DNA from: SAR116 cluster bacterium AG-447-A06
GTDB taxonomy: Bacteria > Pseudomonadota > Alphaproteobacteria > Puniceispirillales > Puniceispirillaceae
Direction: 5' to 3'
Length of the DNA stretch: 64,000 nt
Assembly: GCA_003212345.1 (NCBI GenBank)
Contig: QCPZ01000003.1
Location: forward strand, 62,001 to 126,000
The notes below the pieces were generated by a model that did no database searches, was not told the DNA's origin, and worked only from the letters and a program-made list of their open reading frames with translations. Position numbers and translations under genes: made by a program. Shown one piece after another: positions 14,182 to 34,177 of this stretch; the stretch's first letter is position 1; each line of letters starts with the position of its first letter.

Positions 14182-14224
14182 TTGGGTCTCCTCATTATTA
14201 AGCAATACCCATCATTAGAACAGA

Positions 14225-15619
14225 TTAGGATACATACCGAGGTGTATTTCCATCACCAAGATCCCACCACAGACCTGTCATAAGGCGGAGGGCGCTTTTG
14301 CTTATTGACTCTAAAATATGTTCGTTTGGGGCATGCTGCGAGCATCCTGCATAGGAATGCGGTACCCAAATTGTTGGTAGGCCAAGGAGATCGGCAAAGA
14401 CATCATTAGGCAAGGAGCCACCAAGATTTGGCACAACTGCGATTTCACCGTCAGCGGTTTTTTTCAATGACTGTATCGCCCATTTTGCCCATGGGTGATC
14501 CGGATCAAGTCGAGTGGCATGCATTGGATCGCGCTCGCTGGTGATGGCAATGTCACCAAAGCCATGCTTGTCTAGATGAACTCGCAGCAATGGCATAAGC
14601 TGGTTAATGTCAGTTCCAACAACGTAGCGAAGATGCCCAAACACCACCGCTGATGGCGGAATGGCATTGGCCGGAGATTGCGGGTTCCCGGTTTCAAATG
14701 CGCGCACTTCAAATGTGTTGCTAGCAAAAACACGTTCAGCGATTGTCATATCTGGTTCGCCCCAGTTTGGGTTGATATCGGGATTGTTCTCACCACCGCC
14801 AACCTTGAGCTTGGCGATCGCTGCCCTTACCGAATTCGGAATACGGGTATTGCGCCACCCCTCCACCAAAATTTTCCCGTTGCGGTCAATCATGCTCGCA
14901 AGCGCATGTGCCATCACCACACCTGGATTGGTTAACAGCCCGCCCCAATTGCCAGAATGATGCCCGCCAGCGTGCGAATCAAGACGCATGGTAAAATTAA
15001 AGACACCGCGTGATCCCATAAAGATCGTGGGTTTGTCGGGGTGAATGCGTGGTCCATCTGACGCAATAAAGACATCGGCTTCAAATAAATCCTTATGCGC
15101 TGCGCAAAAATCCTTTAAACCGGGTGAGCCGCGTTCCTCACCCATCTCGATTAGAATGGTGACGTTAAACCCAAGTGATCCTCGAATATCCAATACGGTT
15201 TTCAGCGCGGCCATATTGATTGTGTGCTGCCCCTTATTATCGGCAGTTCCGCGTCCGTACCAGCGCTCCCCAACCTTGTTAATATGCCATGGCGACATTG
15301 CATTATTCCATTGATCATCATAACCGGCCACAACATCGCCATGGCCATAGGTCATTACTGTTGGAAGGTTGCTTCCTTCAATCCGTTTCGCAACCAAAAA
15401 TGGACCAGCGTCGCTGCGCGGGTTTGGGTAGGTGTTACAGACAAATCCCATATCCGACAGATAGGGAACAAGATCATCCTCAAGATACGCCTCTAGGGCT
15501 GCGTCGCAATTGGGCAGGTTACTCTCAGTCTTGAAAGCAATACGGGTGGCGAGCTCGGCTTCAAAATCGCCATTCTGGTAATAATCGTCAATTGCAGCTA
15601 TCGCTTGATCTCGGCTCAT
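14225..15619 (-). CDS. M20 family metallopeptidase (dipeptidase-like)
   Basis: Third M20 enzyme of the region, 464 residues, of the larger dipeptidase/ArgE-DapE-related group. Seen: TYGHGDVV (metal ligand), RGTADNKGQH (bridging Asp), IEMGEERGSPGL (catalytic Glu pair), HAGGHHSGNWGG in the lid domain, and SYAGCSQHAPNEH near the C-terminus with the last metal His. No signal peptide. It precedes the amidase gene, suggesting stepwise hydrolysis of an imported amide-containing peptide. Divergent from the DmdA-like gene across a 248-base gap. Confidence 0.88.
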   Translation of the reverse strand: MSRDQAIAAIDDYYQNGDFEAELATRIAFKTESNLPNCDAALEAYLEDDLVPYLSDMGFVCNTYPNPRSDAGPFLVAKRIEGSNLPTVMTYGHGDVVAGYDDQWNNAMSPWHINKVGERWYGRGTADNKGQHTINMAALKTVLDIRGSLGFNVTILIEMGEERGSPGLKDFCAAHKDLFEADVFIASDGPRIHPDKPTIFMGSRGVFNFTMRLDSHAGGHHSGNWGGLLTNPGVVMAHALASMIDRNGKILVEGWRNTRIPNSVRAAIAKLKVGGGENNPDINPNWGEPDMTIAERVFASNTFEVRAFETGNPQSPANAIPPSAVVFGHLRYVVGTDINQLMPLLRVHLDKHGFGDIAITSERDPMHATRLDPDHPWAKWAIQSLKKTADGEIAVVPNLGGSLPNDVFADLLGLPTIWVPHSYAGCSQHAPNEHILESISKSALRLMTGLWWDLGDGNTPRYVS

Positions 15620-15867: not shown

Positions 15868-17010
15868 ATGAATAATCTAGTTGATTTTGGTTTTGGCACG
15901 CAAATTCGTAAGTCACCATATTTTGAAGCCACTGTCAAATGGGGGGCAACGGCGTTTTCGGTTTATAACCACATGTATATACCGCGTGATTTTGGTGATC
16001 CTGAAAAGAATTTCTGGAATCTAGTCAATGACGCAATCCTATGCGATGTAGCGGTCGAACGCCAGGTTGAAATTACAGGACCGGATGCGGCAAATTTTGT
16101 GCAATATCTTACCCCGCGCGACCTCAGCAATATGGTAGTTGGCCAATGCAAATATGCGCTAATCACCAATGCTGAAGGCGGCATTCTCAATGACCCTATA
16201 ATCCTGCGGTTGGAAGAAAATAAATTTTGGATTTCGTTGGCTGATAGTGATGTGCTGTTTTGGGCGCAGGGCGTGGCAGTGAATGCAGGATTTGACGTTC
16301 ATATTTGTGAACCTGATGCATCGCCATTGCAGCTCCAAGGGCCGCGATCAATGGATATTATGAAGGTACTGTTTGGTGAAGAAATTGCCGATCTGAAATA
16401 TTACTGGATTCGTGATGTGACATTGGATGGCATGGACCTGATAATTTCGCGCACTGGCTGGTCAAGCGAACTTGGCTATGAGATTTATTTACAAGATGGT
16501 AGGCGCGGCACCGATTTGTGGGACCGAATTATGACGGCAGGCGAGCCTTTCGGATTGAGGCCTGGTCACACATCAACTATTCGCCGGATTGAAGGGGGTA
16601 TGCTCTCTTATCATGCTGACATGGATATCAAAACAAACCCGTTTGAACTGGGTCTTGACCGGCTGGTTGCACTTGATGTGCCGCATGATTTTGTAGGAAA
16701 AGCAGCCCTAGCTGAGATAAAAAGGTTAGGGCCAAGCCGAAAGCAAGTGGGTCTGATCCTTGATACATCTCCCTTATCCAGCCCAAATACAAAATTTTGG
16801 CCAGTGATCAGGAATGGTAAATTTATTGGCAAAGTTACCTCTGCTGTCTATTCACCTCGCCTTGAGCAGAATATTGCCATGGCGATGATCGATCGGGATT
16901 ATTTTGAGTTGAGTTCCATTGTCGAGGTGGAAATGACGCATGGTACCTGCAGCGCAACAATGGTGGCTATGCCCTTTTATGATCCGAAGAAAAGTATTGC
17001 CAAAAGCTGA
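15868..17010 (+). CDS. DmdA/GcvT-like aminomethyltransferase-fold protein
   Basis: A 380-residue folate-dependent methyltransferase-fold protein. Seen: FSVYNHMYIPRDFG, VERQVEITGPDAANFVQYLTPRD, ILNDPIILRL and FWISLADSDVLFWAQG, which match DmdA-type proteins more than glycine-cleavage T protein, then RTGWSSELGYEIY and IRRIEGGMLSYHADMD. It diverges from the stronger DmdA candidate at 33.1-34.2 kb in the C-terminal half (LGLDRLVALDVPHDFVGKAAL instead of the DmdA pattern). AGGAGAC precedes the ATG. Known family activity is transfer of a methyl group to tetrahydrofolate; here the donor is unknown. Confidence 0.75.
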   Translation: MNNLVDFGFGTQIRKSPYFEATVKWGATAFSVYNHMYIPRDFGDPEKNFWNLVNDAILCDVAVERQVEITGPDAANFVQYLTPRDLSNMVVGQCKYALITNAEGGILNDPIILRLEENKFWISLADSDVLFWAQGVAVNAGFDVHICEPDASPLQLQGPRSMDIMKVLFGEEIADLKYYWIRDVTLDGMDLIISRTGWSSELGYEIYLQDGRRGTDLWDRIMTAGEPFGLRPGHTSTIRRIEGGMLSYHADMDIKTNPFELGLDRLVALDVPHDFVGKAALAEIKRLGPSRKQVGLILDTSPLSSPNTKFWPVIRNGKFIGKVTSAVYSPRLEQNIAMAMIDRDYFELSSIVEVEMTHGTCSATMVAMPFYDPKKSIAKS

Positions 17011-20100: not shown

Positions 20101-21039
20101 TCAATATGAAACGTCATCAACGAGTTTTCGCGTATCGTTAAGTGTTTTCCTAACAGCGCTTTCTAAAGCTTCGACAAAAGCCAATGCCGCCCGTGACAAG
20201 GGTCGCCGCTTTGGCGTGATGATTGAAAAATGATAGGGGATTTTTGGAGAAAATCTCCGAAACTCGAGAGACCTGTTGTCTCTCCACATTTTACGGTGAA
20301 TCCAAGCTGTTAGCGGGCTAAAGACGCTAAACGCAACACCTGATGAAATAATTTCATACTGTGCGGCTCCATTCTGCATTTGAAATTTCGGGTCAAAACT
20401 AACGCCAGCACTATCAAATGCCATTTTCAGCGCCTTGGTAATATGATGCTCAGGAAGAAAACTTGCACATGATCGTCCTGCGAGATCATGAGGTTCAATA
20501 ACAGATTTTCTCAATAAAGGATCTCCTGACGGTAAAGCGCAAACGCAATCAACATCGAACCGCCGGCATTTGATTAAATCAGTGTCTTCCCCGCGCTCCG
20601 CAAGGCCAATATCGAATCGCTGCGCCTCTATACTTGAAATTACTTCAGGTGATTTTTGAACCGCAACCTGAAATCCGGCTTTTGGATGGTTTTTGGAAAA
20701 TTTGGCGATTACACCCGGTAAGAAATGTTCGGAGAGAACCGGCATTGAACTCACGGTTATTTTTGTTGGGCTTGCTTCGACACCGGCTTGCAATAGCTGA
20801 TGCAGTTCGTCAACCTGTTCCAAAATTTCGGTGGCTTTTTCAAGAAGAAAAAATGTTTCTGGCATTGGCATCAATCGGCCTTTCTCGCGCTTAAATATCG
20901 GATAATTCAGATTTTTTTCTAGTTCTTTGACCGTTGCGCTTAGGGCTGGCTGGGTGCGTCCTAATTCACGGGCGGCTGCCGAAATAGATCCGCTTTTCAT
21001 GATCTCGCGGATAACTGTCATTTGCCACAAGCTAATCAT
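20101..21039 (-). CDS. LysR family transcriptional regulator
   Basis: 312-residue activator/repressor with an N-terminal winged HTH (residues about 1-60: SISAAARELGRTQPALSATVKELEKNL) and a periplasmic-binding-like effector domain. GAGGCAGGGT precedes ATG 21039. It is divergent from the TAXI/TRAP-flavoprotein operon across a 320-base gap that contains a T-N11-A palindrome, so by the usual LysR arrangement it likely controls that operon and responds to its substrate. No special residue lets the ligand be named. Confidence 0.9.
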   Translation of the reverse strand: MISLWQMTVIREIMKSGSISAAARELGRTQPALSATVKELEKNLNYPIFKREKGRLMPMPETFFLLEKATEILEQVDELHQLLQAGVEASPTKITVSSMPVLSEHFLPGVIAKFSKNHPKAGFQVAVQKSPEVISSIEAQRFDIGLAERGEDTDLIKCRRFDVDCVCALPSGDPLLRKSVIEPHDLAGRSCASFLPEHHITKALKMAFDSAGVSFDPKFQMQNGAAQYEIISSGVAFSVFSPLTAWIHRKMWRDNRSLEFRRFSPKIPYHFSIITPKRRPLSRAALAFVEALESAVRKTLNDTRKLVDDVSY

Positions 21040-21350
21040 ACCCTGCCTCGAATGGTTCTCTTTCGTCTTTATGATTAGACATAGAGGTAGCCCATAAATT
21101 TTATTTATGGAATCAGAATAATTTATAATTTGTATTAATGGAAGCTAAAGCGCTAAATTTTAGTCAGGGTGAAATGTTTAGAGTTAACCCGTCGATTGGC
21201 AAATGGGGGATTGGCTGATCTATGGTGACACTGCGTTGGTGTCATTGTGGCTTCAGACATTCGTTCCTTCATTTGTTTGGCGAAGCGTTTGGCGAAGAAA
21301 ATGCCGGTAGGTAATTAGTCGCGACTGCTTCACTAATTAATAAAACTGAA
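21040..21350. other. Divergent regulatory gap between lysR and TAXI operon
   Basis: No coding frame is convincing here. The gap holds an AT-rich stretch next to the LysR gene with a palindrome at 21092-21110, and the promoter region of the TAXI operon nearer to 21350. Confidence 0.6.
21092..21110. promoter_or_regulatory. Candidate LysR operator
   Basis: Perfect seven-base inverted repeat CCATAAA / TTTATGG around a five-base centre. It contains the T-N11-A pattern expected of LysR-type boxes, 53 bases upstream of the divergent LysR gene. Binding is inferred from pattern and position. Confidence 0.45.
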
Positions 21351-21362
21351 GTGGAGGAACCC

Positions 21363-22358
21363 ATGAAATACTTAAGCAAGCTATTCGCAACAGCTTTGGT
21401 TTCATTGCTTGCGATGGGCGGCGTAGCTCAAGCGCAAGATATGAAATTTTTTAGGATTGGTACTGGTGGAGCCGGTGGCACATATTTTCCAATTGGTGGC
21501 CTGATTGCAAATGCAATTTCCAGCCCACCGGGCGCGCGTTCTTGTGAAAAGGGCGGAACCTGTGGTGTGCCTGGATTGGTTGCTATCGCTGTTTCAACAA
21601 ATGCATCTGTGTTTAACATGAACGCCGTGCAGGCAGGCAACCTTGAAGCTGGCCTTGCTGGTGCTCAAAGCGTGACACAAGGTTATGAAGGCACGGGAAA
21701 ATTCAAAGGCGACAAGAAAGATAAAGTCCGGATCATTGCCAATCTCTATCCAGAAGACATGCACCTTGTGCTGCCAAAAGGCGGTAAGCTCAATAGTCTT
21801 AAAGACCTCGAGGGTAAAAGAGTTGGTGTTGCGTCAGCCGGTTCAGGAACTCAGGTTTCTGTGAAAATGATCCTTAAACATTACGGTATTTCAGTAAAAG
21901 AGAATGAATTGGGATTAAAGCAGAGCGCACAGCGTCTCGCTGACGGCCAACTCGATGCTTTTTTCTATGCCGGTGGTACACCGTTTGCTGCTCTCATTCA
22001 GTTGGGATCAACCAAAGGATTTGAGTTATACAATTTCTCAGCCTCAGAACGCAAAGAAATTAACAAAATCATTCCTTACTATGTTGAGTCAAAGATTCCT
22101 GCCGGAACTTATGAGACAATTGGCTATGATGTTGCAACAGTCGCGGTCAACGGTCAGCTCGTGACATCAATTGACCAGCCAGAAGATCTAATCTACGGAA
22201 TCACCAAGGCTTTATGGAGCAAGAAGACCCGTGGTTTGCTCGATAAAGGCCACTCAAAAGGTAAGGCGATCCAATTGGAAACAGCTCTCAAGGGTGTTTT
22301 GATTCCGGTTCATCCAGGTGCTGCTAAATTCTACAAAGAAAAAGGACTAATGAAATAA
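21363..22358 (+). CDS. TAXI family TRAP transporter solute-binding protein
   Basis: Periplasmic receptor of a TRAP-T system, 331 residues. Seen: signal peptide with hydrophobic core ATALVSLLAMGGVAQAQ, then FRIGTGGAGGTYFPIGG, the classic TAXI opening that binds the ligand, and LKDLEGKRVGVASAGSGT. The start is ATG 21363, six bases after GGAGG; a GTG at 21351 in frame overlaps that site and is rejected. An odd internal insert, SSPPGARSCEKGGTCGV, has two cysteines that could form a disulphide. It heads the operon with the fused permease; TAXI ligands include glutamate and other small acids, but this one is unknown. Confidence 0.92.
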   Translation: MKYLSKLFATALVSLLAMGGVAQAQDMKFFRIGTGGAGGTYFPIGGLIANAISSPPGARSCEKGGTCGVPGLVAIAVSTNASVFNMNAVQAGNLEAGLAGAQSVTQGYEGTGKFKGDKKDKVRIIANLYPEDMHLVLPKGGKLNSLKDLEGKRVGVASAGSGTQVSVKMILKHYGISVKENELGLKQSAQRLADGQLDAFFYAGGTPFAALIQLGSTKGFELYNFSASERKEINKIIPYYVESKIPAGTYETIGYDVATVAVNGQLVTSIDQPEDLIYGITKALWSKKTRGLLDKGHSKGKAIQLETALKGVLIPVHPGAAKFYKEKGLMK

Positions 22359-22374
22359 TTAACCCTCATTAGCG

Positions 22375-22418
22375 AGTTGCAGAGGCGTTTCTACGAATGC
22401 CTCTGCAACTATTTTTTT
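22375..22418 (+). terminator. Hairpin plus T run after the TAXI receptor gene
   Basis: Perfect 12-bp stem AGTTGCAGAGGC with a 12-base loop, followed by A and seven T. This is a textbook intrinsic terminator in form, yet the permease gene follows in the same direction, so partial read-through is likely. Confidence 0.85.
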
Positions 22419-22461
22419 GATCATTTTAAGCGCTTAAATGCGTATGAATGAGGACACGGTA

Positions 22462-24555
22462 ATGGCTGAACTCGACATTAAGAAAGCTGAAGAGTTAGAG
22501 GAAAAATATGACTCCGGGCTTCAAACTCGTGTCATTGGACCTTACCTCGTAAAATTTTCGTTTTATTTTTCTATCATTTTTGCCGCATATCATTATGTCA
22601 CCGCAGGCATAGGTGTACCTATTGATTATTGGCACATGGGCTCGCACATGGCTGGGGTCATGATTTTAGTGTTTATTGGATTTCCGGCTTTTCGAGGCAG
22701 ACACAGTAATAAAATGCGACCAAATAGTTGGTGGATTTACGGAAATGTACCAATCTGGGACTGGCTTTTTATTGTCGCGGGCGTCGCGTCTGCTTATTAT
22801 GTTGGCGTCACCTGGTATGAGATTGATTTCGAGTTTCTGGGTGGGCGGTTTCAACTGCCTGATCAGGTGATGCGTCAAGGTAATCCTGCAACAATTGATG
22901 TTGTTTTTGGCACTATACTCGTAGTTGTGTTGCTTGAAGCCGTTCGTCGTACCCTTGGCATTATTGTGCCGATCATTATTTGTATTTTTACAGTCTACGC
23001 CGTATTTGGCATGTATATGCCGTTTCAAATTTTAAAGCATCCCGGCGTAAGCTGGGATTTGTTTATCAATAGTATGTATTTCCCTGAAGAAGGAATTTTT
23101 GGGGTAACGCTGTGGATCGTTTCAACCGTGGTGTTTCATTTTGTGCTGTTTGGTATTCTTGCCCAACGAATGGGCTTAGGACAATTCTTTGTTGATGTTG
23201 CGACTGTTGCTGCGGGGCGCTATACCGGTGGCCTTGCTAAGGTCAGCGTGGTGTCATCGGCCTTTTTTGGAACAATCTCAGGATCATCAATTGCTAATAC
23301 CGTTTCTACGGGGTCTTTGACAATTCCAAACATGAAGCGGATGGGGTATCCCGGTCATTTGGCAGGTGGTGTCGAAGCGGCATCAAGCGCCGGTGGACAG
23401 ATCACCCCACCAATCATGGGTGCTGCTGCGTTTGTCATGGCTGAATTTCTCGAGCTTCCATACACTACCATCATTCTAGCCGCATTGGTTCCGGCCGCCA
23501 TGCATTATGTTGGCGTGATATCAATTGTCCATTTCAAAGCAAAACGCCTCGGTCTGAAAGGTATGCCGGACTCGGAAATCCCAAAACTTTGGGATGTAAT
23601 CAGACGGGGATGGCCAACAGCTATCCCACTCGCGGTGCTAATCTATGTTTTATTTAGCGGTTACTCGCCCCACATGGCAGCCTTCTGGGGGATCACTACT
23701 GCATTGGTTGTTGGCTTTTTGAACCCAATGCACCGTATTGGTATCAACGATATTATGGAAGGCTGTGTAACCGGTGTGAAATACGCACTTGCGGTTGGCG
23801 CGGTCTGTTCTGCCATTGGTATTGTTGTTGGAGTTGTAAACACAACTGGCCTTGGATTTCGGCTGGGTTTTATGGTTACTGAAGTGGCAGTTAATTTTGG
23901 TGAGGCGACGCTGCCATTGATCGCCTGGTTTCCACTGGCAGATTTTGATTTGCAAGATCTAACCTTATTCATCTCGCTGATTATGATTGCGGTTACCTGT
24001 ATTTTTATGGGTGCTGGATTGCCAACCACAGCGCTTTATATCATGTTGGCGACAGTAGCACAGCCGGCGCTTGGCAACCTCGGTGTTCCACCACTCGCAT
24101 CACATTTGTTTGTGCTTTACTATGGTGTTATCTCAGAAATTACTCCGCCGGTGTGTGCGTCTGCATACGCGGCTGCTGGCATTGCTGGGTCAAACCCATT
24201 TAAGACAGGCCTATCAGCGTTTTCTCTCGGCATTGGTAAACTTTTGGTGCCGATGGTATTTGTCTATTCACCAGCTATGTTAATCGTTCTTGATGATTAT
24301 TTCACCTGGGCTGAATTTATTCAAACTGCAGCTACATGTGCACTTGGGGTGTTTTTGTTGTCCGCTTCAGTTGCAGGGTACTTCCTTGCGTTTATGAATG
24401 GCCCAAGCCGTGTCATGTTTGCTCTTGCGGGGTTACTTCTGGTATCTCCCAGCACTACTGCAATACTTTATGCATTGCTGTTGGCTTCGCCTGTCTTGGC
24501 ACATCAAATTTATGAGCGGTATTTTAATAAAGGTCACCTGACGAAGGAGACTTGA
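22462..24555 (+). CDS. Fused TRAP transporter permease (TAXI type)
   Basis: Integral membrane protein of about 697 residues combining the small (DctQ-like) and large (DctM-like) TRAP subunits. Seen: helices after residue 40, then the DctM domain with VSVVSSAFFGTISGSSIANTVSTGS, the VEAASSAGGQITPPIMGAAAF motif and GAGLPTTALYIM near the second half, all typical of the 4TM/12TM fusion. The start at 22462 has GAGGAC seven bases upstream; ATGs at 22438 and 22444 lack one. It works with the upstream receptor, driven by a sodium or proton gradient. Overlaps the cupin gene by one base. Confidence 0.93.
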   Translation: MAELDIKKAEELEEKYDSGLQTRVIGPYLVKFSFYFSIIFAAYHYVTAGIGVPIDYWHMGSHMAGVMILVFIGFPAFRGRHSNKMRPNSWWIYGNVPIWDWLFIVAGVASAYYVGVTWYEIDFEFLGGRFQLPDQVMRQGNPATIDVVFGTILVVVLLEAVRRTLGIIVPIIICIFTVYAVFGMYMPFQILKHPGVSWDLFINSMYFPEEGIFGVTLWIVSTVVFHFVLFGILAQRMGLGQFFVDVATVAAGRYTGGLAKVSVVSSAFFGTISGSSIANTVSTGSLTIPNMKRMGYPGHLAGGVEAASSAGGQITPPIMGAAAFVMAEFLELPYTTIILAALVPAAMHYVGVISIVHFKAKRLGLKGMPDSEIPKLWDVIRRGWPTAIPLAVLIYVLFSGYSPHMAAFWGITTALVVGFLNPMHRIGINDIMEGCVTGVKYALAVGAVCSAIGIVVGVVNTTGLGFRLGFMVTEVAVNFGEATLPLIAWFPLADFDLQDLTLFISLIMIAVTCIFMGAGLPTTALYIMLATVAQPALGNLGVPPLASHLFVLYYGVISEITPPVCASAYAAAGIAGSNPFKTGLSAFSLGIGKLLVPMVFVYSPAMLIVLDDYFTWAEFIQTAATCALGVFLLSASVAGYFLAFMNGPSRVMFALAGLLLVSPSTTAILYALLLASPVLAHQIYERYFNKGHLTKET

Positions 24556-24908
24556 TGCAACCAGTTTCACGCAGCACTCAAACAGCTTATAAATGGGGTG
24601 AGGGTGGCGTTGGATGGCCCCTTGTTGATACTCATGGACTATTGGTTGTTGAAGAAACTATGGCGCCTGGCTGTAGTGAAAAGCGCCACCATCACAATAA
24701 AGCTACTCAATGTTTTTACATCCTTGAGGGCACTGCGTTGATGAAAATTGATGGCCAAAATATAGTTCTTGTCCAAGGTATGGCCTTGCAGATACAACCG
24801 GAAACTGACCATGCCATTGCCAATGAGAGCTCCAAGGAAATCCGGTTTTTGGTGATTTCAGCGCCATCAACGCGGTCTGACCGACATGAAATTGGGGTGA
24901 AAAAATGA
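24555..24908 (+). CDS. Cupin domain protein
   Basis: Small single-domain beta-barrel of 117 residues. Seen: motif 1 KRHHHNKATQCFYILEG near residues 37-53 with three His and a downstream Glu, and motif 2 around QIQPETDHAIANES near 80-92 with a His, enough to bind one metal ion. Start ATG 24555 shares a base with the permease stop (TGATG), after GAAGGAGA. It ends in an ATGA overlap with the first flavoprotein gene. Role may be a metal-dependent isomerase, dioxygenase or sensor of the pathway substrate; not determinable. Confidence 0.85.
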   Translation: MQPVSRSTQTAYKWGEGGVGWPLVDTHGLLVVEETMAPGCSEKRHHHNKATQCFYILEGTALMKIDGQNIVLVQGMALQIQPETDHAIANESSKEIRFLVISAPSTRSDRHEIGVKK

Positions 24909-26161
24909 TTCAGCCAAAACCCACAATTGATGTTGCTGTTGTTGGTGCAGGGATCATTGGTGTTTGCATGGCACTCGAACTTGCTGAACGTGGCCTGAAG
25001 GTCACTATCTTTGACCCAGCACCTGTTTGCAGCAAGACCAGCTATGGTAATGCTGGTGTTATTTCGCCTTGGACATGTGTTCCGCAATCAATGCCGGGCT
25101 TGTGGAAGCAGGTCCCGGGTTGGTTGATTGACCCGGATGGGCCGGTTTCAATTCGTCCAAGCTATATGCCAAAACTGTTGCCATGGGTGCTACGGTTCAT
25201 TGCGGCGGGCCGCTCACAACGCATTGACCCCGTTGCAGATGCTATGTTTCGTCTAAGTAAAGGCAGTGTTGCTGCCTATAAAAAGCGGCTCGATGGAACG
25301 GGTAAGGAAAACCTCGTTCGTGACTCCATGTATGTCCATGTGTACCGGAGTTCAAAATCAGCATCACTAGACCATTTGGGATGGCAGTTGCGACAAGCAC
25401 GCCAAGTGCCAATCGAGCTAATTGACAAGGCGGCTTTGAGGGAAATTGAACCCGAAATTGCCGATCAATATCAGGCTGCCATACTTATCAAACAGCAGGG
25501 ACGAGCAAGTGACCCCGCTGGCATCGGCATTGCATTGGCTGAAAAAGCTTTGGCTAAAGGGGCCAGTCATCTTCAAACGATGGTGCAGGAGATTAACCCC
25601 GATCAGGGAGAGGGCTGCCGATTGGTGACGGATCAGGGTGACTATAGGGCCGAAAAAATTGTTCTGGCGGCAGGAGTTTGGTCGTGTCAGTTGTTGAAAA
25701 GATTTGGCATTAAGCTGCCGCTTGAAGCTGAACGTGGATATCATCTGGTGCTGCGCAATCCGGGCGTTACCATCAATAATTCAGTTATGGATGCCGAGCA
25801 GAAATATGTAGCTAGTTTGATGAAAGCGGGCGTCAGGGTTGCGGGCACGGCTGAGTTTGCTGGTATTGATGCGGCCCCAAATTATGTTCGCGCTCATCGG
25901 TTTGCACAGCAGGCCAAGAAGCTTTTTCCTAGGTTAAACATCACTAATCCGGAGGAGTGGATGGGGGCACGTCCCAGTTTTCCTGATAGCCTCCCTTGCC
26001 TCGGTGAAATTCCCGGTTTGAAGAATATTGTTGCTGCTTTTGGGCATTCCCATTACGGGCTTGGCATGGGGCCTGGTACCAGTGAGGTTATAGCCGATTA
26101 TATCACGAGGGCTGCTCACTGTGAGAGTTTACTGCCATATAGTATTGAACGATTCCAATGA
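24905..26161 (+). CDS. FAD-dependent D-amino acid dehydrogenase-like oxidoreductase
   Basis: DAO/DadA-family flavoprotein, 418 residues. Seen: dinucleotide-binding VAVVGAGIIGVCMALELAERG near residue 11, an acidic FDP after strand two, SYGNAGVISPW typical of DadA, and the C-terminal FAD segment FGHSHYGLGMGPGTSEVIADYI. DadA relatives oxidise D-amino acids or secondary amines at the membrane, passing electrons to the respiratory chain. It begins in an ATGA overlap with the cupin and ends in another with the next flavoprotein. One of three DAO-fold proteins in this operon. Confidence 0.88.
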   Translation: MIQPKPTIDVAVVGAGIIGVCMALELAERGLKVTIFDPAPVCSKTSYGNAGVISPWTCVPQSMPGLWKQVPGWLIDPDGPVSIRPSYMPKLLPWVLRFIAAGRSQRIDPVADAMFRLSKGSVAAYKKRLDGTGKENLVRDSMYVHVYRSSKSASLDHLGWQLRQARQVPIELIDKAALREIEPEIADQYQAAILIKQQGRASDPAGIGIALAEKALAKGASHLQTMVQEINPDQGEGCRLVTDQGDYRAEKIVLAAGVWSCQLLKRFGIKLPLEAERGYHLVLRNPGVTINNSVMDAEQKYVASLMKAGVRVAGTAEFAGIDAAPNYVRAHRFAQQAKKLFPRLNITNPEEWMGARPSFPDSLPCLGEIPGLKNIVAAFGHSHYGLGMGPGTSEVIADYITRAAHCESLLPYSIERFQ

Positions 26162-27273
26162 CCCAGTCAGCAAAGTCAAATTTTGATGCCATTATTGCCG
26201 GCGGGGGGTTGATCGGTCTTTCAATTGGTTATGGGTTGTCACGGCTTGGTTTGTCAGTCCTTTTGTTGGATGCGAAAGATACCGCCATTAGGGCGGCGCG
26301 TGGTAATTTTGGATTAGTATGGGTTCAGGGCAAAGGCGCCTATTTTCCTTCCTATGCTGATTGGACGATGCGATCGTCTGAACTGTGGCCAAATCTGGCT
26401 GATGAATTACAGGACATTGATGGACCCAAGTTGGGCTTGCATCAAAATGGTGGCCTTAGCATTTGTCTTAGTGAGGCTGAAATGCAACAGCGTTTCGATA
26501 AGCTTGAGCACCTTCGTGTGCATCAGAATGGCCGTTTTCATTTCGAGATGCTTGACCGTGCTGCTGTGAAGGAGATTATGCCGGGTATAGGGCCACGGGT
26601 TCTAGGAGCGGCGTATTGTGCGCATGATGGACATGTAAACCCACTTTATCTAATGCGTGCCCTTCAAACTGGATTAATCCGCAATGGCGGTGTTTGCCTC
26701 TCAAATTCGCCAGTGTCTGACATTCGTAAAAATGGCAGCGCCATTAATGTTTCTACCCCAAAGGATAATTTTGAATGCCAGCGGTTAGTTCTGGCAGCCG
26801 GTCTTGCCAATGCCGGACTCGCGCCGATGGTTGGTTTGGAGCAATCCGTAACACCGCAAAAGGGACAAATTGTTATTACCGAGAAACTAGACCAGCAACT
26901 GCCTCTACCCACATTACTTTTACGGCAAACTGACGAGGGCGGGTTGATGATCGGTGACAGCCACGAAGATTGTGGATTTGATACCAGCGTGTCCCCTAAC
27001 GTCGTTAGCGGCATTGCCGATCGGGCATTGGCTACCTTGCCAGCCCTCGCTGATGTTGGTGTTGTTCGTAGCTGGGCGGCACTTCGGGTTATGTCTAAAG
27101 ACGGTTACCCTATTTATGACCAGTCTGAAACAATGTCGGGGGCATTTGCGATATCATGCCATAGTGGCGTAACATTATCGGCCGCACATGCGTTTGACCT
27201 AGCAGGCTATATTGCAGAGGGTGAATTAGGGCAGGAGCTTGATGGATTTTCCCAGAGGCGATTTGATGTTTAG
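26158..27273 (+). CDS. DAO-family FAD-dependent oxidoreductase
   Basis: Flavoprotein of 371 residues. Seen: AIIAGGGLIGLSIGYGLSRLG near residue 11 for ADP binding, an acidic residue after strand two (LLLDA), GNFGLVWVQGKG where the FAD isoalloxazine region is expected, and a C-terminal CHSGVTLSAAHAFDLAGYI FAD motif. Resembles the catalytic subunit of multi-subunit amino acid dehydrogenases such as the HcnC/sarcosine-oxidase-beta type. Coupled to the DadA-like gene by ATGA and overlapping the ferredoxin-like gene by 32 bases. Confidence 0.86.
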   Translation: MTQSAKSNFDAIIAGGGLIGLSIGYGLSRLGLSVLLLDAKDTAIRAARGNFGLVWVQGKGAYFPSYADWTMRSSELWPNLADELQDIDGPKLGLHQNGGLSICLSEAEMQQRFDKLEHLRVHQNGRFHFEMLDRAAVKEIMPGIGPRVLGAAYCAHDGHVNPLYLMRALQTGLIRNGGVCLSNSPVSDIRKNGSAINVSTPKDNFECQRLVLAAGLANAGLAPMVGLEQSVTPQKGQIVITEKLDQQLPLPTLLLRQTDEGGLMIGDSHEDCGFDTSVSPNVVSGIADRALATLPALADVGVVRSWAALRVMSKDGYPIYDQSETMSGAFAISCHSGVTLSAAHAFDLAGYIAEGELGQELDGFSQRRFDV

Positions 27274-27568
27274 GCCTGTTATGACAAAGACTGGCAAGCC
27301 CGTTGAATTTCAGTTTGAGGATGAAATTATAACGGCCATTGATGGCGATAATGTTGCCGCCGCGCTGTTGAAGGCTGGCAAAATTCAATTTCGGACAGCC
27401 AAAAAACATGACACCCGCGGGCCTTATTGCATGATGGGTGTCTGTTTTGAGTGCCTTGTTGAAATTGATGGTAGGCCCAATCAACAAGCCTGCCAGGCTA
27501 TGATACGTGATGGTATGCAAATCCGGCGGCAGCAGGCCCCAGATTTGGATGGCGACTTCGAGGGATAG
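27242..27568 (+). CDS. HcnA-like [2Fe-2S] subunit
   Basis: Small 108-residue protein with a plant-type ferredoxin fold as in HcnA or sarcosine oxidase alpha N-terminus. Seen: the cluster motif GPYCMMGVCFECLVEIDG followed by QQACQAM, giving Cys-x4-Cys-x2-Cys and a distant Cys. Start ATG 27242 follows GCAGGAGC; an ATG at 27266 after GAGGCG is an alternative. It overlaps the preceding flavoprotein gene and is four bases before the HcnB-like gene. It should carry electrons between the flavin subunits. Confidence 0.88.
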   Translation: MDFPRGDLMFRPVMTKTGKPVEFQFEDEIITAIDGDNVAAALLKAGKIQFRTAKKHDTRGPYCMMGVCFECLVEIDGRPNQQACQAMIRDGMQIRRQQAPDLDGDFEG

Positions 27569-27572
27569 GCCG

Positions 27573-28955
27573 ATGACAGATCAACATTTCCAAGTCGCCA
27601 TCATTGGTGCTGGTCCCGCTGGTATGGCGGCCGCATGTACAACTACAAAAGCCGGCCTTCACACCATTGTTATTGACGATCAGAAAGATAGTGGGGGTCA
27701 GGTATATCGTAATCTGAAAGCTAATCATTCGTTGTCCCCGACCTATCTTGGCGATAGCTATTATGCTGGGACAAAGCTATCTAATGACTTTGCTGCATGT
27801 GGGGCAAATTATTTGACTGATTGCACGGTTTGGCAAATTACCAACAGTCATGAAATAGCCCTTGTTTCGTGCGGCAAAGCCGAATTAATTACTGCTGATT
27901 ATATTATCATTGCAACGGGGGCAATTGAACGAGCAATGCCGGTCAAAGGATGGACACTTCCTGGTGTGATGAGTGTTGGTGGAGCGCAGACATTGCTCAA
28001 GCAGGCAGCTCTTGGCGCTGATGAGGCCGTTTTTGTGGGGTCTGGCCCTCTGCTATATCTAACCGTTTGGCAGTATATCAACGCGGGCTTATCTGTTCGT
28101 GCCGTTCTTGATACCACTGGAAGATCTCAATGGCTGTCTGCGCTTCCGTTTGCGCCATTGGCGTTCCTGCAGCCTGATATGCTGGCAATGGGGCAGAAAT
28201 GGCTTCGTGAAATCCGCCAAAAAGTGGATGTAATCACAAATGTTGAGGGGGTTGAGATTGCCGGCCGGTCTCGGGTAGAAGGGCTGTCCTACACAACTTC
28301 ATCACGTGAAAGAATTGATTTGCCGGCAAAGTATGTGTTTTTGCATCAGGGCGTTATTCCTAATATTAATCTGTCAATGGCGACTGGCTTAGAACATCGC
28401 TGGGATCAAAAAGCGCACTACTGGACGCCCGTAACTGATGCAACCGGCAAATCATCGGACGAACAGATTTATATAGCGGGAGATGGTAACGGGGTTGGCG
28501 GTGCCAAGGCCGCGGCAATTACTGGGCGATTAAGCGCAAGTGCAATTGTGGCGCGGTATGGAAAACCAAGACTTATGGCACAGCTCTATTATAAATTACG
28601 TCATTTACATTTTCTGAGTATAAGGCCGTTTCTTGACCGCCTTTACCTACCAGAAGTCCGATTCCGAATTCCACAAAATGATGAAACAATTATCTGTCGG
28701 TGTGAGGCTGTTACCAAGGCGGATATCTCCGCTGCCCTTGGCAGTGGTGCGACAGGACCAAACCAGCTAAAGGCTTTTAGCCGCGCTGGTATGGGGCGTT
28801 GTCAGGGTCGCACTTGTGGGTTGATGGTCCAAGAAATGATCGCCGATCATACTGGCCAATCAATGGCAGCAATCGGCTATTACCGCTTACGCCCGCCGGT
28901 AAAGCCAATTACGTTGGCCGCACTTGCCAGCTTAGAGGGCACATGGCCACAGTAA
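27573..28955 (+). CDS. HcnB-like FAD/NAD(P) oxidoreductase with BFD-type cluster
   Basis: Electron-transfer subunit of 460 residues. Seen: FQVAIIGAGPAGMAAA near residue 6 (first nucleotide site), FVGSGPLLYL near 150 (second), GDGNGVGGAKAA near the second FAD contact, and a C-terminal cysteine set CRCEAV with GRCQGRTCG, as in the BFD-like [2Fe-2S] domain of HcnB, opine oxidase and hydroxyproline dehydrogenase subunits. The start at 27573 is chosen after GAGGGATAGG; a longer frame to 27507 overlaps the upstream gene. Forms a complex with the HcnA-like and a DAO-type subunit by family analogy. Confidence 0.88.
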   Translation: MTDQHFQVAIIGAGPAGMAAACTTTKAGLHTIVIDDQKDSGGQVYRNLKANHSLSPTYLGDSYYAGTKLSNDFAACGANYLTDCTVWQITNSHEIALVSCGKAELITADYIIIATGAIERAMPVKGWTLPGVMSVGGAQTLLKQAALGADEAVFVGSGPLLYLTVWQYINAGLSVRAVLDTTGRSQWLSALPFAPLAFLQPDMLAMGQKWLREIRQKVDVITNVEGVEIAGRSRVEGLSYTTSSRERIDLPAKYVFLHQGVIPNINLSMATGLEHRWDQKAHYWTPVTDATGKSSDEQIYIAGDGNGVGGAKAAAITGRLSASAIVARYGKPRLMAQLYYKLRHLHFLSIRPFLDRLYLPEVRFRIPQNDETIICRCEAVTKADISAALGSGATGPNQLKAFSRAGMGRCQGRTCGLMVQEMIADHTGQSMAAIGYYRLRPPVKPITLAALASLEGTWPQ

Positions 28956-30103
28956 ATGACGCCGCAGTATGTGTTAGAAGGAGCACGGCAGCCTCAAAAA
29001 GGCCTGTAGTTATAATAGGTGCTGGCATCCAGGGCTGTGCAACGGCCTTTTTTCTTAGCCAGAGGGGCCAGCCGGTCATTGTGCTCGACAAGGACCACGT
29101 TGGGCGCCATGCGTCGGGGGTGAATGCTGGCGGAGTCAGACGTCTCGGGCGTGACATTAATGAAATACCGTTGTCACTTGTGGCAATGGATTGGTGGCAC
29201 CAAATTGATCAATTGCTTGATATTGAGGATGGGTTTCATCAGCAATTCTATGTCAAGGTGGCGCTTGATGATGCAGGTGCTAACCTTGCTGGGAATCGTA
29301 TACAGCAATTGGAAAAAGCCGGATTTAAGCATGAAAAATGGGTGGAACCTGAACAGCTGCATCGGCGTATTCCGCACTTGACGAAATCCATTATCGGAGG
29401 TGTGCTCGTCGAGGGCGATGGTTGGGCTTTGCCATGGAGGATCACTCGTGCTTTTTATGAGCAGGCGGTTAAGCTTGGTGCTGAATTCCGGACACCAGTT
29501 AGCGTACAATCACTGGATTATGTTGGTGACCATTGGCAGGTCACGACTAATGTTGGCAAGCTGGAGACGGATAATGTAGTCAATTGCGCCGGTGCATGGG
29601 GCTCGCAGATTGCAAAAATGGTTGGTGATGACATGCCGGTTGAGGCGCATGCCCCAATGCTAGTTATCACCGATCGACAACCTCTGTTTCTTGATGCGGT
29701 TATTGGGGTTATGGGAGGCACATTGTCACTCAAACAACTTGATAACGGTTCAATGGTAATTGGTGGTGGTATGCGGGGTGTGGCAGATCCAGACCAAAAT
29801 AAAACTCAGCTTACCCCCGTTGGACTCAGCAAATTTGTGATGACAGCAGGTCGGGTTTTCTCGCATTTGCGCGATGTTTCGATTCTGCGGGCATGGGCTG
29901 GAATTGAGGGTTATACTGCTGATAATCTACCCTTTATTGGAAGGGGTAGCCAACCGGGAATTATTCACGGATTTGGCTTTTCTGCGCACGGGTTTCAGCT
30001 TGGCCCGGGAGTTGGTGAGGTGCTCTCTGATCTTGTTATGGCCCGCCAGCCACGGGTTGATATCTCGCCATTTGCGCCGCATCGTTTTTCAAAGCTGTCA
30101 TAA
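28943..30103 (+). CDS. HcnC-like DAO-family oxidoreductase
   Basis: Third DAO-fold flavoprotein of the operon, 386 residues. Seen: VVIIGAGIQGCATAFFLSQRG near residue 24, VLDKDHVGRHASGVNAGGVR with the FAD-binding turn, and the C-terminal GFGFSAHGFQLGPGVGEVLSDL. Such proteins are the catalytic beta subunits of opine, proline or hydroxyproline dehydrogenases. Start 28943 lies inside the end of the HcnB-like gene after AGAGGGC; the longer frame to 28799 has no family match. Last gene of the operon; a convergent oxidase gene follows after 21 bases. Confidence 0.87.
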   Translation: MATVNDAAVCVRRSTAASKRPVVIIGAGIQGCATAFFLSQRGQPVIVLDKDHVGRHASGVNAGGVRRLGRDINEIPLSLVAMDWWHQIDQLLDIEDGFHQQFYVKVALDDAGANLAGNRIQQLEKAGFKHEKWVEPEQLHRRIPHLTKSIIGGVLVEGDGWALPWRITRAFYEQAVKLGAEFRTPVSVQSLDYVGDHWQVTTNVGKLETDNVVNCAGAWGSQIAKMVGDDMPVEAHAPMLVITDRQPLFLDAVIGVMGGTLSLKQLDNGSMVIGGGMRGVADPDQNKTQLTPVGLSKFVMTAGRVFSHLRDVSILRAWAGIEGYTADNLPFIGRGSQPGIIHGFGFSAHGFQLGPGVGEVLSDLVMARQPRVDISPFAPHRFSKLS

Positions 30104-30124: not shown

Positions 30125-31420
30125 TTATTTTGTTGTTGTTTTGAACTTATCTTGGATCGAATAAAAACTCATAGCCAATGGTAGGAACCACGGATCGCCG
30201 GAATAAAATGGCATTGTGCGGAATGGCATGCCCTGGAAGACACTGTCCTGCAGATCGTCAAGCACCATATATGCTGCTTTTTGTCCCAACCAGCGAGCCC
30301 ATACGGTTCCCGAACCGCAAAAGCCAGTTGGGTAAATAACCCCGTCATGCACGGCCAGCTTTGGTAACTGGTCAAACGGGAAAGCGACAAAGCCAAACCA
30401 GTGATTTGAAATAGAAACTTTGGAAAGTTGGGGAAAAATTGAAGTCAGGCCATTAATTAGACGGTCGCGCGCCTTAGCCGGGTCTGGGCTCATCCGGCGG
30501 CCCCCTAATAGAATTCTTTTACCATCAGGTGATGGTCGGTAATAATGTCCAAGCTGTAGCGCTTCGCTATACATGTTTAACCCCGGCATCAAGCTTCGCA
30601 CCATGTTTTCACCGAGTTCTTCGGTTGCGATCATCTCAGAAATGACCGGCACTAAACGGCGACGTAACCATGGTTGCCCTGAGTCAGTATAAGCATTTGT
30701 AGCACTAATAACGTGACCGGCACTGATTATCCCTCGACTGGTTTCGACGCGAAAATCTGATGTTGTTGACGTTTGATTTGTCTTGCTAACTGAAAGCACT
30801 TTGGTTTGGGTTGAAAGTTTGACCGACTCGACTAGTGCAATCTTGCACATGCCGGCTAACAGTTTTGCTGGATGGATGCCGCCGATATCATCCCGTAAAA
30901 TGCCCCCGCAGTAGCGTGACGTGTCAATATAATCGGGTAATTCCGCCCGCGTGCAAACTGTGGTATTGATATCAAGGAGTACATTGAGCTTTTCTGCTTC
31001 GCGCTTCATGCCCTCAAATGACTCAGGGCGTAAGGCGCCCACCACTCGCCCACAATTTTGCAAATCACATTCAATTTTTTCTGTCTTTATGAAATCAAAA
31101 AGGTCTTCACGCGCGGTTTTTCCTTCGCGGTAAAATGCCGTTGCTTTTTCTTTGCCAAATTTTTTTGTGAGTTTATCGAGCGACACACGGAGATTACCGC
31201 TTGTTATGCCCCCGTTACGCGTTGAAGCCCCTGATCCAATCTGATCGCGTTCAAGAATAACCACATCAAGTCCAGCTCTCGCCAGTGGTATTGCGGCTCC
31301 AAATCCAGTATAGCCGCCACCGATAATTACCACATCAGCGCGCGTTGGCCAGCTATCCATTTCAAAGTCCTGAGGTGGTGCGGCGGCCCACCAATAGGGG
31401 TCAGTAGAAATATTTGTCAT
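30125..31420 (-). CDS. FAD-dependent amine/amino acid oxidase (PuuB-like)
   Basis: DAO-family flavoprotein of 431 residues. Seen: DPYWWAAAPP near the N-terminus, which is typical of gamma-glutamylputrescine oxidase-like proteins, ADVVIIGGGYTGFGAAIPLARAG, GSGASTRNGGITSGNLR for FAD, and ILLGGRRMSPDPAKAR with GFCGSGTVWARWLG at the C-terminus. ATG 31420 is preferred over a TTG at 31465. Substrates of the family include N-acylated polyamines and N-methyl amino acids. Not cotranscribed with the TAXI operon, since it lies on the other strand. Confidence 0.85.
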   Translation of the reverse strand: MTNISTDPYWWAAAPPQDFEMDSWPTRADVVIIGGGYTGFGAAIPLARAGLDVVILERDQIGSGASTRNGGITSGNLRVSLDKLTKKFGKEKATAFYREGKTAREDLFDFIKTEKIECDLQNCGRVVGALRPESFEGMKREAEKLNVLLDINTTVCTRAELPDYIDTSRYCGGILRDDIGGIHPAKLLAGMCKIALVESVKLSTQTKVLSVSKTNQTSTTSDFRVETSRGIISAGHVISATNAYTDSGQPWLRRRLVPVISEMIATEELGENMVRSLMPGLNMYSEALQLGHYYRPSPDGKRILLGGRRMSPDPAKARDRLINGLTSIFPQLSKVSISNHWFGFVAFPFDQLPKLAVHDGVIYPTGFCGSGTVWARWLGQKAAYMVLDDLQDSVFQGMPFRTMPFYSGDPWFLPLAMSFYSIQDKFKTTTK

Positions 31421-31615
31421 GCTAACATTCACTTTTGTCGTTGTTTGATAGGCTTGTTCGGCCAACGGATATCGTTCATGCTAATGCAAATTGATAAAAT
31501 TGGAAGCTTGCATTTTCTGGCAGAGTTTGTTGGAGAAGCACGTAAAAATGCGGCAGGGGCACCACTTACTTGCAAATATTATTTATTTTTCACGAATTCT
31601 TGAGGACATCAGCCA

Positions 31616-33049: not shown

Positions 33050-34177
33050 TTACCCATCATGGGTAAATGGTAATGCCGCTACCGATGCTCTGCGGGCTAT
33101 TCCATCAGGCGTATGGACCATTAGTGAGGTGCCAATGTCCCAATGGGATCGTGCGATCATTGAAAGACCGATATTACAGTCAAAACGTGGCGAAAAAATC
33201 CCTGATGTGATCTGCCCAACTTCCTCGCCGTCAAGGGTTGTTAACGGAAATGGTTTGCCGCAGGGTGGCGCCTTACCACCACCAAATCGAACCCCGCTAA
33301 GCCGCTGGGTAGGACCAATGTTGGCAATACGCTGCAGTGCTGTTTTGCCAATGTAATCAATCTCACTGCCAAGATGGCATAGCGGGCCAAAACCGCATTC
33401 GAGTGGATTATTAGCACGAGTGAATTCATTGCCATACGACATCAATCCGCCTTCAATTCGCTCAATCAGATTAGGACAACCGGGGGCTATGTTATACTTC
33501 TGGCCTTCCTCCCAGATCATGTCCCAAAGGGCCGTGCCAAGGTGGCCGCCTTGAAGGTAAATTTCAAAACCACCCTGCTTGCTATAACCGGATCGGGCAA
33601 TTAGCTGGCGTGTGCCGAGAACATCAAACATCGCGAAGCCAAAATATGGCAGATCATGAATTTTGTGGCCAAATAGGTTAGCCATTAATGCAATTGCTTT
33701 TGGGCCCTGGACAGCTAGGGGAGAGACATCTGGCTCTTCAATTTGCACGTCAAGGCGCATGCCATATGCCAATCCTTTTGCCCATAATAGTATATCGGAG
33801 TCGGCTATGGATAACCAGAACCGATCATTATCCAGTTTTTGCAAGACTGGATCATTCAGCATGCCAGCTGCATCATCAATTAGCGGAATATATAGCCCCT
33901 GTCCAAACTGTGCCTTACGGAGGTCGCGTGGGGTCATTGACTGAACCAGCTTTGAAGCATCGGGCCCTGTAATTTCTACCTGCCGTTGACAGCTAACATC
34001 CCAGATTTGCACATTCTCGCGAAGATGCCAGTAATCATCCTCAACCGTTGGGGCAAAGGCCTTAGGCAGCAGCATATGATTTACAACACTGAACCCGCGC
34101 ACGCCATGCGCTTCAACACGGTCAGTATATGGTGTTCGCCTAATGCGGCGCGACATGTTCAAACCCGATTGACTCAT
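33050..34177 (-). CDS. dmdA: Dimethylsulfoniopropionate demethylase-like methyltransferase (DmdA family)
   Basis: GcvT-fold protein of 375 residues that matches what I remember of DmdA along its length. Seen: RRIRRTPYTDRVEAHGVRGF, VVNHMLLPKAF, VSCQRQVEITGPDASKLVQ with MTPRDLR, SIADSDILLWAKGLAYG, EPDVSPLAVQGPKA, ARSGYSKQGGFEIY and CPNLIERIEGGLMSYGNE. DmdA moves a methyl from dimethylsulfoniopropionate to tetrahydrofolate, giving methylmercaptopropionate. CTGGAGCC precedes ATG 34177. No dmdB/C/D genes lie in the window, so the sulphur pathway is incomplete here; other methyl donors such as dimethylglycine remain possible. Confidence 0.78.
   Translation of the reverse strand: MSQSGLNMSRRIRRTPYTDRVEAHGVRGFSVVNHMLLPKAFAPTVEDDYWHLRENVQIWDVSCQRQVEITGPDASKLVQSMTPRDLRKAQFGQGLYIPLIDDAAGMLNDPVLQKLDNDRFWLSIADSDILLWAKGLAYGMRLDVQIEEPDVSPLAVQGPKAIALMANLFGHKIHDLPYFGFAMFDVLGTRQLIARSGYSKQGGFEIYLQGGHLGTALWDMIWEEGQKYNIAPGCPNLIERIEGGLMSYGNEFTRANNPLECGFGPLCHLGSEIDYIGKTALQRIANIGPTQRLSGVRFGGGKAPPCGKPFPLTTLDGEEVGQITSGIFSPRFDCNIGLSMIARSHWDIGTSLMVHTPDGIARRASVAALPFTHDG

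Follow-up and report, generated by a model that had tools for sequence, protein, structure and literature searches.

A SAR116 gene cluster that probably links a TAXI-type TRAP importer to an opine dehydrogenase-like complex with two alternative beta subunits

In the SAR116/Puniceispirillum genome AG-447-A06, positions 20101 to 30103 of a 64-kb stretch of contig QCPZ01000003.1 (the window from here on) hold nine genes: a divergent LysR-type regulator, a TAXI receptor, a fused TRAP permease, a cupin, the flavoproteins DAO1 and DAO2, an HcnA-like and an HcnB-like subunit and a third flavoprotein, DAO3 (Table 1). We consider it probable that they form an operon for the catabolism of an opine-type substrate, in which a TAXI-TRAP importer is combined with an OdhABC-type enzyme core that has two alternative beta subunits, a flavin enzyme of the sort with which crown-gall and soil bacteria degrade opines, and the bacterium probably feeds on opine-like compounds. 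Opine-type substrates are amino acids that carry a second carboxyalkyl group on their nitrogen. All nine frames are open and free of internal stops, with DAO3 starting at 28943. The gene labels of the preliminary description, made from the sequence alone, were all upheld by Pfam and NCBIfam domain searches, and so was its account of nearly contiguous genes, with overlaps of 1 base (permease/cupin), 4 bases (cupin/DAO1 and again DAO1/DAO2), 8 bases (DAO2/HcnA, or 32 with an alternative upstream start) and 13 bases (HcnB/DAO3); the exceptions are gaps of 103 bases between receptor and permease (79 with the alternative permease start at 22438) and of 4 bases between HcnA and HcnB. The closest relatives by name are SAR116/Puniceispirillum genomes, with a top DAO2 identity of 98% among the matches listed.

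Judged by sequence, the family assignment of the enzyme core is firm, while that of its substrate is not. The order DAO2-HcnA-HcnB-DAO3 is that of OdhB1-C-A-B2 in Bradyrhizobium japonicum as described in PMC4575208, and two beta subunits with an R-x-W motif as well as Fe-S and FAD motifs are found in both, the likeness being to the description in that paper rather than from a direct comparison of sequences. The same B1-C-A-B2 order is present in plasmid loci of Azospirillum, Thioclava and pTi186. DAO2 is 48.5% identical to Azospirillum B1, 46.8% to OoxB and 37.1% to NoxB; DAO3 is 43.3% identical to Azospirillum B2; HcnB shows 45.7% identity to Azospirillum A and 39% to OoxA, and HcnA 45.7% to Azospirillum C and 43% to the 2Fe-2S protein adjoining OoxB. 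In a tree of 57 rows, built without Bradyrhizobium, P. putida and HcnC sequences, DAO2 grouped in one clade (support 100/100) with the B1 proteins of plasmids, OoxB and NoxB, DAO3 in another with three plasmid B2 proteins (100/98), and DAO1 and DAO4, a convergent flavoprotein gene next to the operon, each formed a clade of their own. We assigned DAO2 to type 1 by its clade membership with OoxB and NoxB, and DAO3 to type 2 by gene order, by the plasmid B2 proteins and by a remark in PMC4575208 that places this type near archaeal L-proline dehydrogenase. Where the DAO3 clade meets the beta subunit of L-proline dehydrogenase, support is weak (88/83, on a long branch). That enzyme from Pyrococcus horikoshii (1y56) is the best solved match of both DAO3 (27% identity) and HcnB and carries LRTWAG, but it is archaeal and has, according to PMC4575208, its gamma part fused into alpha. 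The flavin-containing opine dehydrogenase of Aureimonas altamirensis (7fgp) matches DAO2 over nearly its full length, at a distance (E value of 1.6e-13, 53.7 bits).

The iron-sulfur ligands point in the same direction. Four cysteines of HcnA, in the pattern C-x4-C-x2-C-x11~12-C, are present in 73 of 73 rows, and those of HcnB (C-x-C ... C-x4-C) in 68 to 69 of 69. The alpha-subunit cysteine spacing of 32 in HcnB is larger than the 15 to 20 given in PMC4575208, and OoxA and NoxA show a similar spacing. Gene order, type-1 beta clade, R-x-W motif and Fe-S cysteines thus all place the core with OdhABC, enzymes that oxidize opines with dye acceptors and contain FAD, FMN and 2Fe-2S in a complex of composition alpha4beta4gamma4. 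The Ti-plasmid loci OoxB-C-A and NoxB-C-A have the B-C-A order in common with it, but in the stretches examined these octopine and nopaline oxidase loci have one beta subunit, and the importer at the octopine locus is of the ABC type. The SAR116 locus also differs from Bradyrhizobium Odh by its TAXI-TRAP importer, by DAO1, the cupin and DAO4, and by its marine host. HcnABC enzymes have the gene order A-B-C, with a single catalytic subunit that comes last. The preliminary description had compared the operon to this type; the HcnA-like and HcnB-like subunits stood, while the opine dehydrogenases proved closer and the order did not match, a catalytic-type subunit also lying before HcnA, and we rejected the HcnABC label. 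No HcnC was recognized among the DAO matches of five genomes behind named loci.

In the expression experiments of Watanabe and co-workers (PMC4575208), the two phylogenetically distant beta subunits of Bradyrhizobium Odh each assembled with common alpha and gamma subunits, never together, so the sharing of one pair is already published for a relative. The best reading of our analysis is that DAO2 and DAO3 would likewise share one HcnA/HcnB pair in this organism. A single full-length HcnB-type gene (about 460 amino acids, the operon's own) was found in four of the five genus genomes searched with HcnB, among them the window's own genome and a single-contig genome rated 100% complete; in the fifth, G029, it is split into three pieces. 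Further HcnB matches in the five genomes were frames of about 320 or about 1000 amino acids, or two short weak ones. On this count, the two beta subunits have one obvious partner pair. The HcnB frame is broken by frame changes in locus L026 (FRAM18_bin087) as well as in G029, as is the permease of L026, possibly through assembly errors.

Motif columns were read from alignments of the window and of sufficiently long relatives out of the best 80 of 586 loci, the set from which the counts of TAXI, ABC and Bug loci and those for DAO1, DAO4, RidA and the cupin are taken. The GxGxxG motif is kept in DAO1, DAO2 and DAO3, so that none of them had lost these FAD-binding residues, a loss that the preliminary description had named as damaging to its own proposal. 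The R-x-W of the beta subunit, a putative FMN site in PMC4575208, has both its Arg and its Trp in all 81 DAO2 rows, window included; in DAO3 the Trp is present in 40 of 40 rows and the Arg in 36. DAO1 has the Trp in 26 of 26 rows and the Arg in none, which suggests that it does not belong to the complex. The earlier idea that two catalytic flavoproteins perhaps share an electron-transfer pair is accordingly supported for DAO2 and DAO3, with Bradyrhizobium as precedent, and not for DAO1. Four residues past the motif Trp lies an Arg in all 81 DAO2 and all 26 DAO1 rows and a Glu in all 40 DAO3 rows. In glycine oxidase and related amino acid oxidases, the Arg at that place holds the carboxylate of the substrate. 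DAO2 and DAO3 may therefore differ in how they hold the substrate or in which substrates they accept.

DAO1 is predicted from its sequence to act alone, apart from the complex, and its substrate is probably a D-amino acid that has been released, or a related amine. Among NCBIfam models it scores best against D-amino acid dehydrogenase (193.8 bits, about half of the cut-off of 383); among solved proteins it comes closest to glycine oxidase and to the beta subunit of L-proline dehydrogenase (22 to 24% identity), and an AlphaFold2 model from 21 rows had a mean pLDDT of 87.1. DAO1 was found in 14 of 14 loci with a TAXI receptor and, at an identity of at least 30%, in none of 28 loci with a PotD-type ABC receptor, one of which (L056) has a relative at 26%. 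The constant company of DAO1 and the TAXI importer, together with the NCBIfam match, would also suit an operon that mainly takes up and oxidizes D-amino acids, with DAO1 as the main enzyme and the complex handling N-alkyl or cyclic D-amino acids. We regard this as unlikely: opine dehydrogenases are the nearest relatives of the complex subunits, and betaproteobacterial loci that lack a TAXI importer have DAO1 relatives (36 to 38%) near DAO2 too.

Linkage was followed in 61 family genomes, the window's own included, and in the best loci, where genes were scored by identity thresholds of 30 to 60% set gene by gene. The receptor, at an identity of at least 69%, occurs in 20 of the 61 genomes and in 17 of these has DAO2 on the same contig, 4.5 to 4.9 kb away. 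In G023 and G030, the two are on different contigs, that of DAO2 being short, and in G008 the receptor lies 1.4 kb from a contig end, without a close DAO2; short or ending contigs can explain all three. The TAXI form was found in SAR116 and in bins named Rhodospirillaceae, Rhodospirillales, Rhodobacteraceae, Rhodobiaceae, Hyphomicrobiales and Kiloniellaceae. Gene order is mostly constant across these alphaproteobacterial groups, in agreement with the earlier proposal of one import-and-oxidation operon; in L100 (Kiloniellaceae), the transporter genes and DAO1 come after DAO3. Five of the 80 loci have a receptor of the tripartite tricarboxylate (Bug) type about 1 kb upstream, so that, counting the TAXI and ABC forms, importers of at least three kinds accompany a single enzyme core. 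The linkage in many genomes, which answers the earlier question of whether these genes are rarely neighbors elsewhere, and the broadly congruent clades of DAO1, DAO2 and DAO3 leave a chance neighborhood of unrelated catabolic genes scarcely credible, even with the separate history of one transporter block. That block is in L040, where the transporter genes mostly have 72 to 80% DNA identity to the window (21001-24500) and the enzymes 56 to 62%, so that the former were seemingly exchanged separately; in its relative L032, DNA identity over the transporter genes is 62 to 72%.

Receptor and fused permease both exceed the curated cut-offs of the TAXI-TRAP families. The receptor belongs to the same family as the glutamate TAXI proteins VcGluP and TtGluBP (PMC11574862) and has most pocket residues in common with them, keeping the equivalents of VcGluP Tyr45, Ser75, Glu125, Gly156 and Tyr200, but Gln93 is replaced by Gly100 and Met201 by Ala. 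Gln93 and Tyr45 are described as key binding residues of VcGluP, where Gln93, with Tyr45 and Glu125, holds the amino group of the ligand and the mutation Q93A costs 990-fold (PMC11574862). The pair that marks a glutamate-specific TAXI receptor is thus halved here, with Tyr kept and Gln replaced by Gly100. Gly occupies this place in each of the 20 operon-type rows (with the window counted twice, several rows from close relatives, and L114, whose contig stops before the enzymes, included) and in none of 24 comparison rows, for which 20 of the other family receptor matches were used; 10 of the 24 have Gln. Of the comparison receptors, 13 lack Tyr45 and Ser75 and are possibly poorly aligned, whereas the 11 that keep both have Gln in ten cases and Thr in one. 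Four of the comparison receptors (L112, L113, L160 and L172, genus g7) lie near a DAO2 homologue of 39 to 40% identity and are not remote from such enzymes. A smaller residue near the ligand nitrogen would fit an N-substituted amino acid.

Such a compound, an opine, is the leading candidate substrate, perhaps one derived from arginine. Nine SAR116 loci have a gene of the agmatinase/arginase family next to the operon, in one of two positions: downstream in L026, L027, L029, L030, L031 and L118 and upstream in L032, L040 and L114; it was not seen in the maps of L024, L033, L034, L036, L037, L100, L119 and L121. Two of the linked proteins were checked and are below the agmatinase cut-off, and one of them has agmatinase and guanidinobutyrase as its nearest solved relatives. 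The window's own genome has three arginase-family proteins, with best identities of 33 to 35% to the operon-linked SAR116 enzyme. On the nopaline Ti plasmid of strain C58, an arginase adjoins the gene in the noxA position. Together with the linked SAR116 genes, this makes an arginine-derived opine attractive, and we go no further. As for a marine source, PMC4575208 names octopine, alanopine, strombine and tauropine as products of marine invertebrates, a survey of the open ocean reports that free-living bins carry genes for mannopine-type transporters, with marine opines suggested as what these take up (PMC9426571), and Ruegeria pomeroyi beside a marine alga is described as raising genes annotated as an opine/polyamine ABC transporter (PMC9870897). 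A search of the window's own genome with PF02317 (NAD-dependent opine synthase) gave no match, but no control search was positive either, so this negative carries no weight. PF02423 (ornithine cyclodeaminase) gave one match, under the cut-off. Homarine was weighed as another marine substrate and set aside; the account in PMC13390433 ties it to Mgd.

A sister genus brings in another candidate, oxidation of D-hydroxyproline or another cyclic imino acid as by heteromeric D-hydroxyproline dehydrogenase. DAO2 homologues (39 to 40%) of that genus lie within the DAO2 clade and near genes for 4-hydroxyproline epimerase and trans-3-hydroxyproline dehydratase. Their locus map is without DAO3, however, and their receptor has Gln rather than Gly. 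The preliminary description had noted that the racemase of the hydroxyproline route is missing, and indeed the operon holds no epimerase-family gene and PF05544 (proline-racemase family) gave nothing above its cut-off in 16 genus genomes, eight of them at least 90% complete, with one sub-cut-off match in G022 and a control search that was positive in 3 of 14 genomes. Without a proline-racemase-family match over the cut-off the route is disfavored, and we hold it to be quite improbable. In L112 and L113, a TAXI receptor (44% identity, Gln in the pocket) is encoded near the hydroxyproline cluster and in line with genes for allantoinase, ureidoglycine aminohydrolase and ureidoglycolate lyase, and is perhaps part of a ureide importer.

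Demethylation of an N-methyl amino acid, in the manner of sarcosine oxidase, was also considered. Heterotetrameric sarcosine oxidase has an alpha subunit with a GCV_T domain. The operon matches TIGR01372 and TIGR01373, far under their cut-offs, and genes for GCV_T-family proteins flank the region on both sides (window 15868-17010 and 33050-34177). These flanking genes were not seen in maps outside the genus, where flanks are limited, and HcnB is a protein of 460 amino acids with no GCV_T domain, which leaves this reading very improbable.

Several observations weigh against the opine operon with two alternative beta subunits. His replaces the motif Arg in 4 of 40 DAO3 rows; the program flagged long branches meeting at the deep joins of the DAO tree, and the Bradyrhizobium sequences stand outside it; Gln93 is present in just 54% of TAXI sequences by the count in PMC11574862, so that its loss alone is not diagnostic. 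The DAO2 homologues of L112 and L113, from a sister genus with a hydroxyproline cluster, are inside the DAO2 clade, which for that reason does not fix the substrate. No operon-linked arginase-family gene is found in the window, and RidA, near 22 of 28 ABC loci, was found at an identity of at least 30% near none of the 14 TAXI loci, several of which are on short contigs. In addition, the B1 and B2 forms of Bradyrhizobium both oxidize octopine, B1 weakly, and alpha and gamma favor B2 (PMC4575208), a behavior that argues against divided labor.

If the operon does serve opine catabolism, the TAXI receptor would capture the substrate in the periplasm and, to judge from the family, an ion-driven TRAP permease would import it. 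The OdhABC-family dehydrogenase would then oxidize the secondary amine to an imine, which would hydrolyze to an amino acid and a 2-oxo acid, with DAO2 (type 1) or DAO3 (type 2) alternating on one alpha/gamma pair. By analogy with homologues, electrons would pass from the beta-subunit FAD to FMN at the beta/alpha interface, on to the Fe-S centers and into the respiratory chain, and the simplest role for DAO1 would be removal of the released D-amino acid. An extended version, in which open-ocean SAR116 bacteria would have an economy dedicated to opines, is improbable as a whole: the change from Gln to Gly in the receptor would admit N-substituted amino acids, and an opine derived from arginine, for example octopine released by marine animals, would be attacked at one end by the type-1 subunit and at the other by type 2, after which DAO1 would remove the D-amino acid and the arginase-family enzyme linked in other SAR116 genomes would take the arginine.

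The remaining genes vary more. The cupin was found in five of the 80 loci, all SAR116 (and at 39% in L021), and is therefore not a core part of the operon as first described; a fourth DAO-fold protein, DAO4, probably accessory, accompanies the operon in 9 of 14 TAXI loci. A gamma-glutamyltransferase-like gene, named by sequence, follows HcnB in the place of DAO3 in the betaproteobacterial loci L049, L077, L084, L089, L096, L097 and L103. Bins labeled Bordetella parapertussis (L054, L089, L094 and L097) stand amid environmental Burkholderiales bins, and the label may be wrong. Upstream of the operon, L032, L033, L040, L114 and L121 have a gene that resembles those for D-cysteate sulfo-lyase or D-cysteine desulfhydrase, the protein of L032 being below the curated cut-offs. 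The window has M20 peptidase and amidase genes upstream (12745-15619); M20 relatives (50 to 61%) are also near DAO2 in L054, L089, L097 and L100, the last with an amidase relative (57%) as well (both in L100:1319-4310).

Table 1. Genes and motif positions of the SAR116 locus, in window coordinates
Feature	Position	Strand	Basis
LysR-type regulator, divergent	20101..21039	-	Pfam LysR_substrate and HTH_1
TAXI-type TRAP solute-binding protein, 331 aa	21363..22358	+	TIGR02122 (TRAP_TAXI) 272 bits, cut-off 84; phmmer matches 1us4, 8s4j
Receptor Gly100 (place of VcGluP Gln93)	21660..21662	+	Alignment column
Fused TRAP permease (alternative start 22438)	22462..24555	+	TIGR02123 (TRAP_fused) 624.5 bits, cut-off 321
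Small cupin, accessory	24555..24908	+	Pfam Cupin_2
DAO1, DadA-like flavoprotein	24905..26161	+	Pfam DAO
DAO1 W352-x-G-x-R356	25958..25972	+	W, G and R in 26/26 rows
DAO2, OdhB1-like (type-1) beta subunit	26158..27273	+	Pfam DAO; identity; clade
DAO2 R304-x-W306 (FMN motif) and R310	27067..27087	+	Alignment columns
HcnA-like, OdhC-like gamma subunit, [2Fe-2S]	27266..27568	+	Pfam Fer2_4
HcnB-like, OdhA-like alpha subunit (FAD, BFD-type [2Fe-2S]), 460 aa	27573..28955	+	Pfam Pyr_redox_2, Fer2_BFD and SO_alpha_A3
DAO3, OdhB2-like (type-2) beta subunit	28943..30103	+	Pfam DAO; identity; clade
DAO3 R316-x-W318 (FMN motif) and E322	29888..29908	+	Alignment columns
DAO4, L-pipecolate-oxidase-like flavoprotein, convergent with operon, accessory	30125..31465	-	Pfam DAO; best NCBIfam match 132.9 bits, cut-off 600

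What is new here is the TAXI-TRAP system in place of the usual ABC importer, the marine setting, the link with DAO1 and the receptor Gly; among the open-access titles listed in one library, none addresses opine use in SAR116 or opine import by TAXI-TRAP. Opines are best known from crown gall and are also made by marine animals, and we came upon little about what becomes of them in the sea. A TAXI receptor next to opine-type enzymes offers a cloneable test of uptake by SAR116 in the surface ocean, and its ligand would lengthen the short list of known TAXI substrates. The Arg/Glu difference between DAO2 and DAO3, in turn, makes the purpose of the arrangement with two beta subunits testable.

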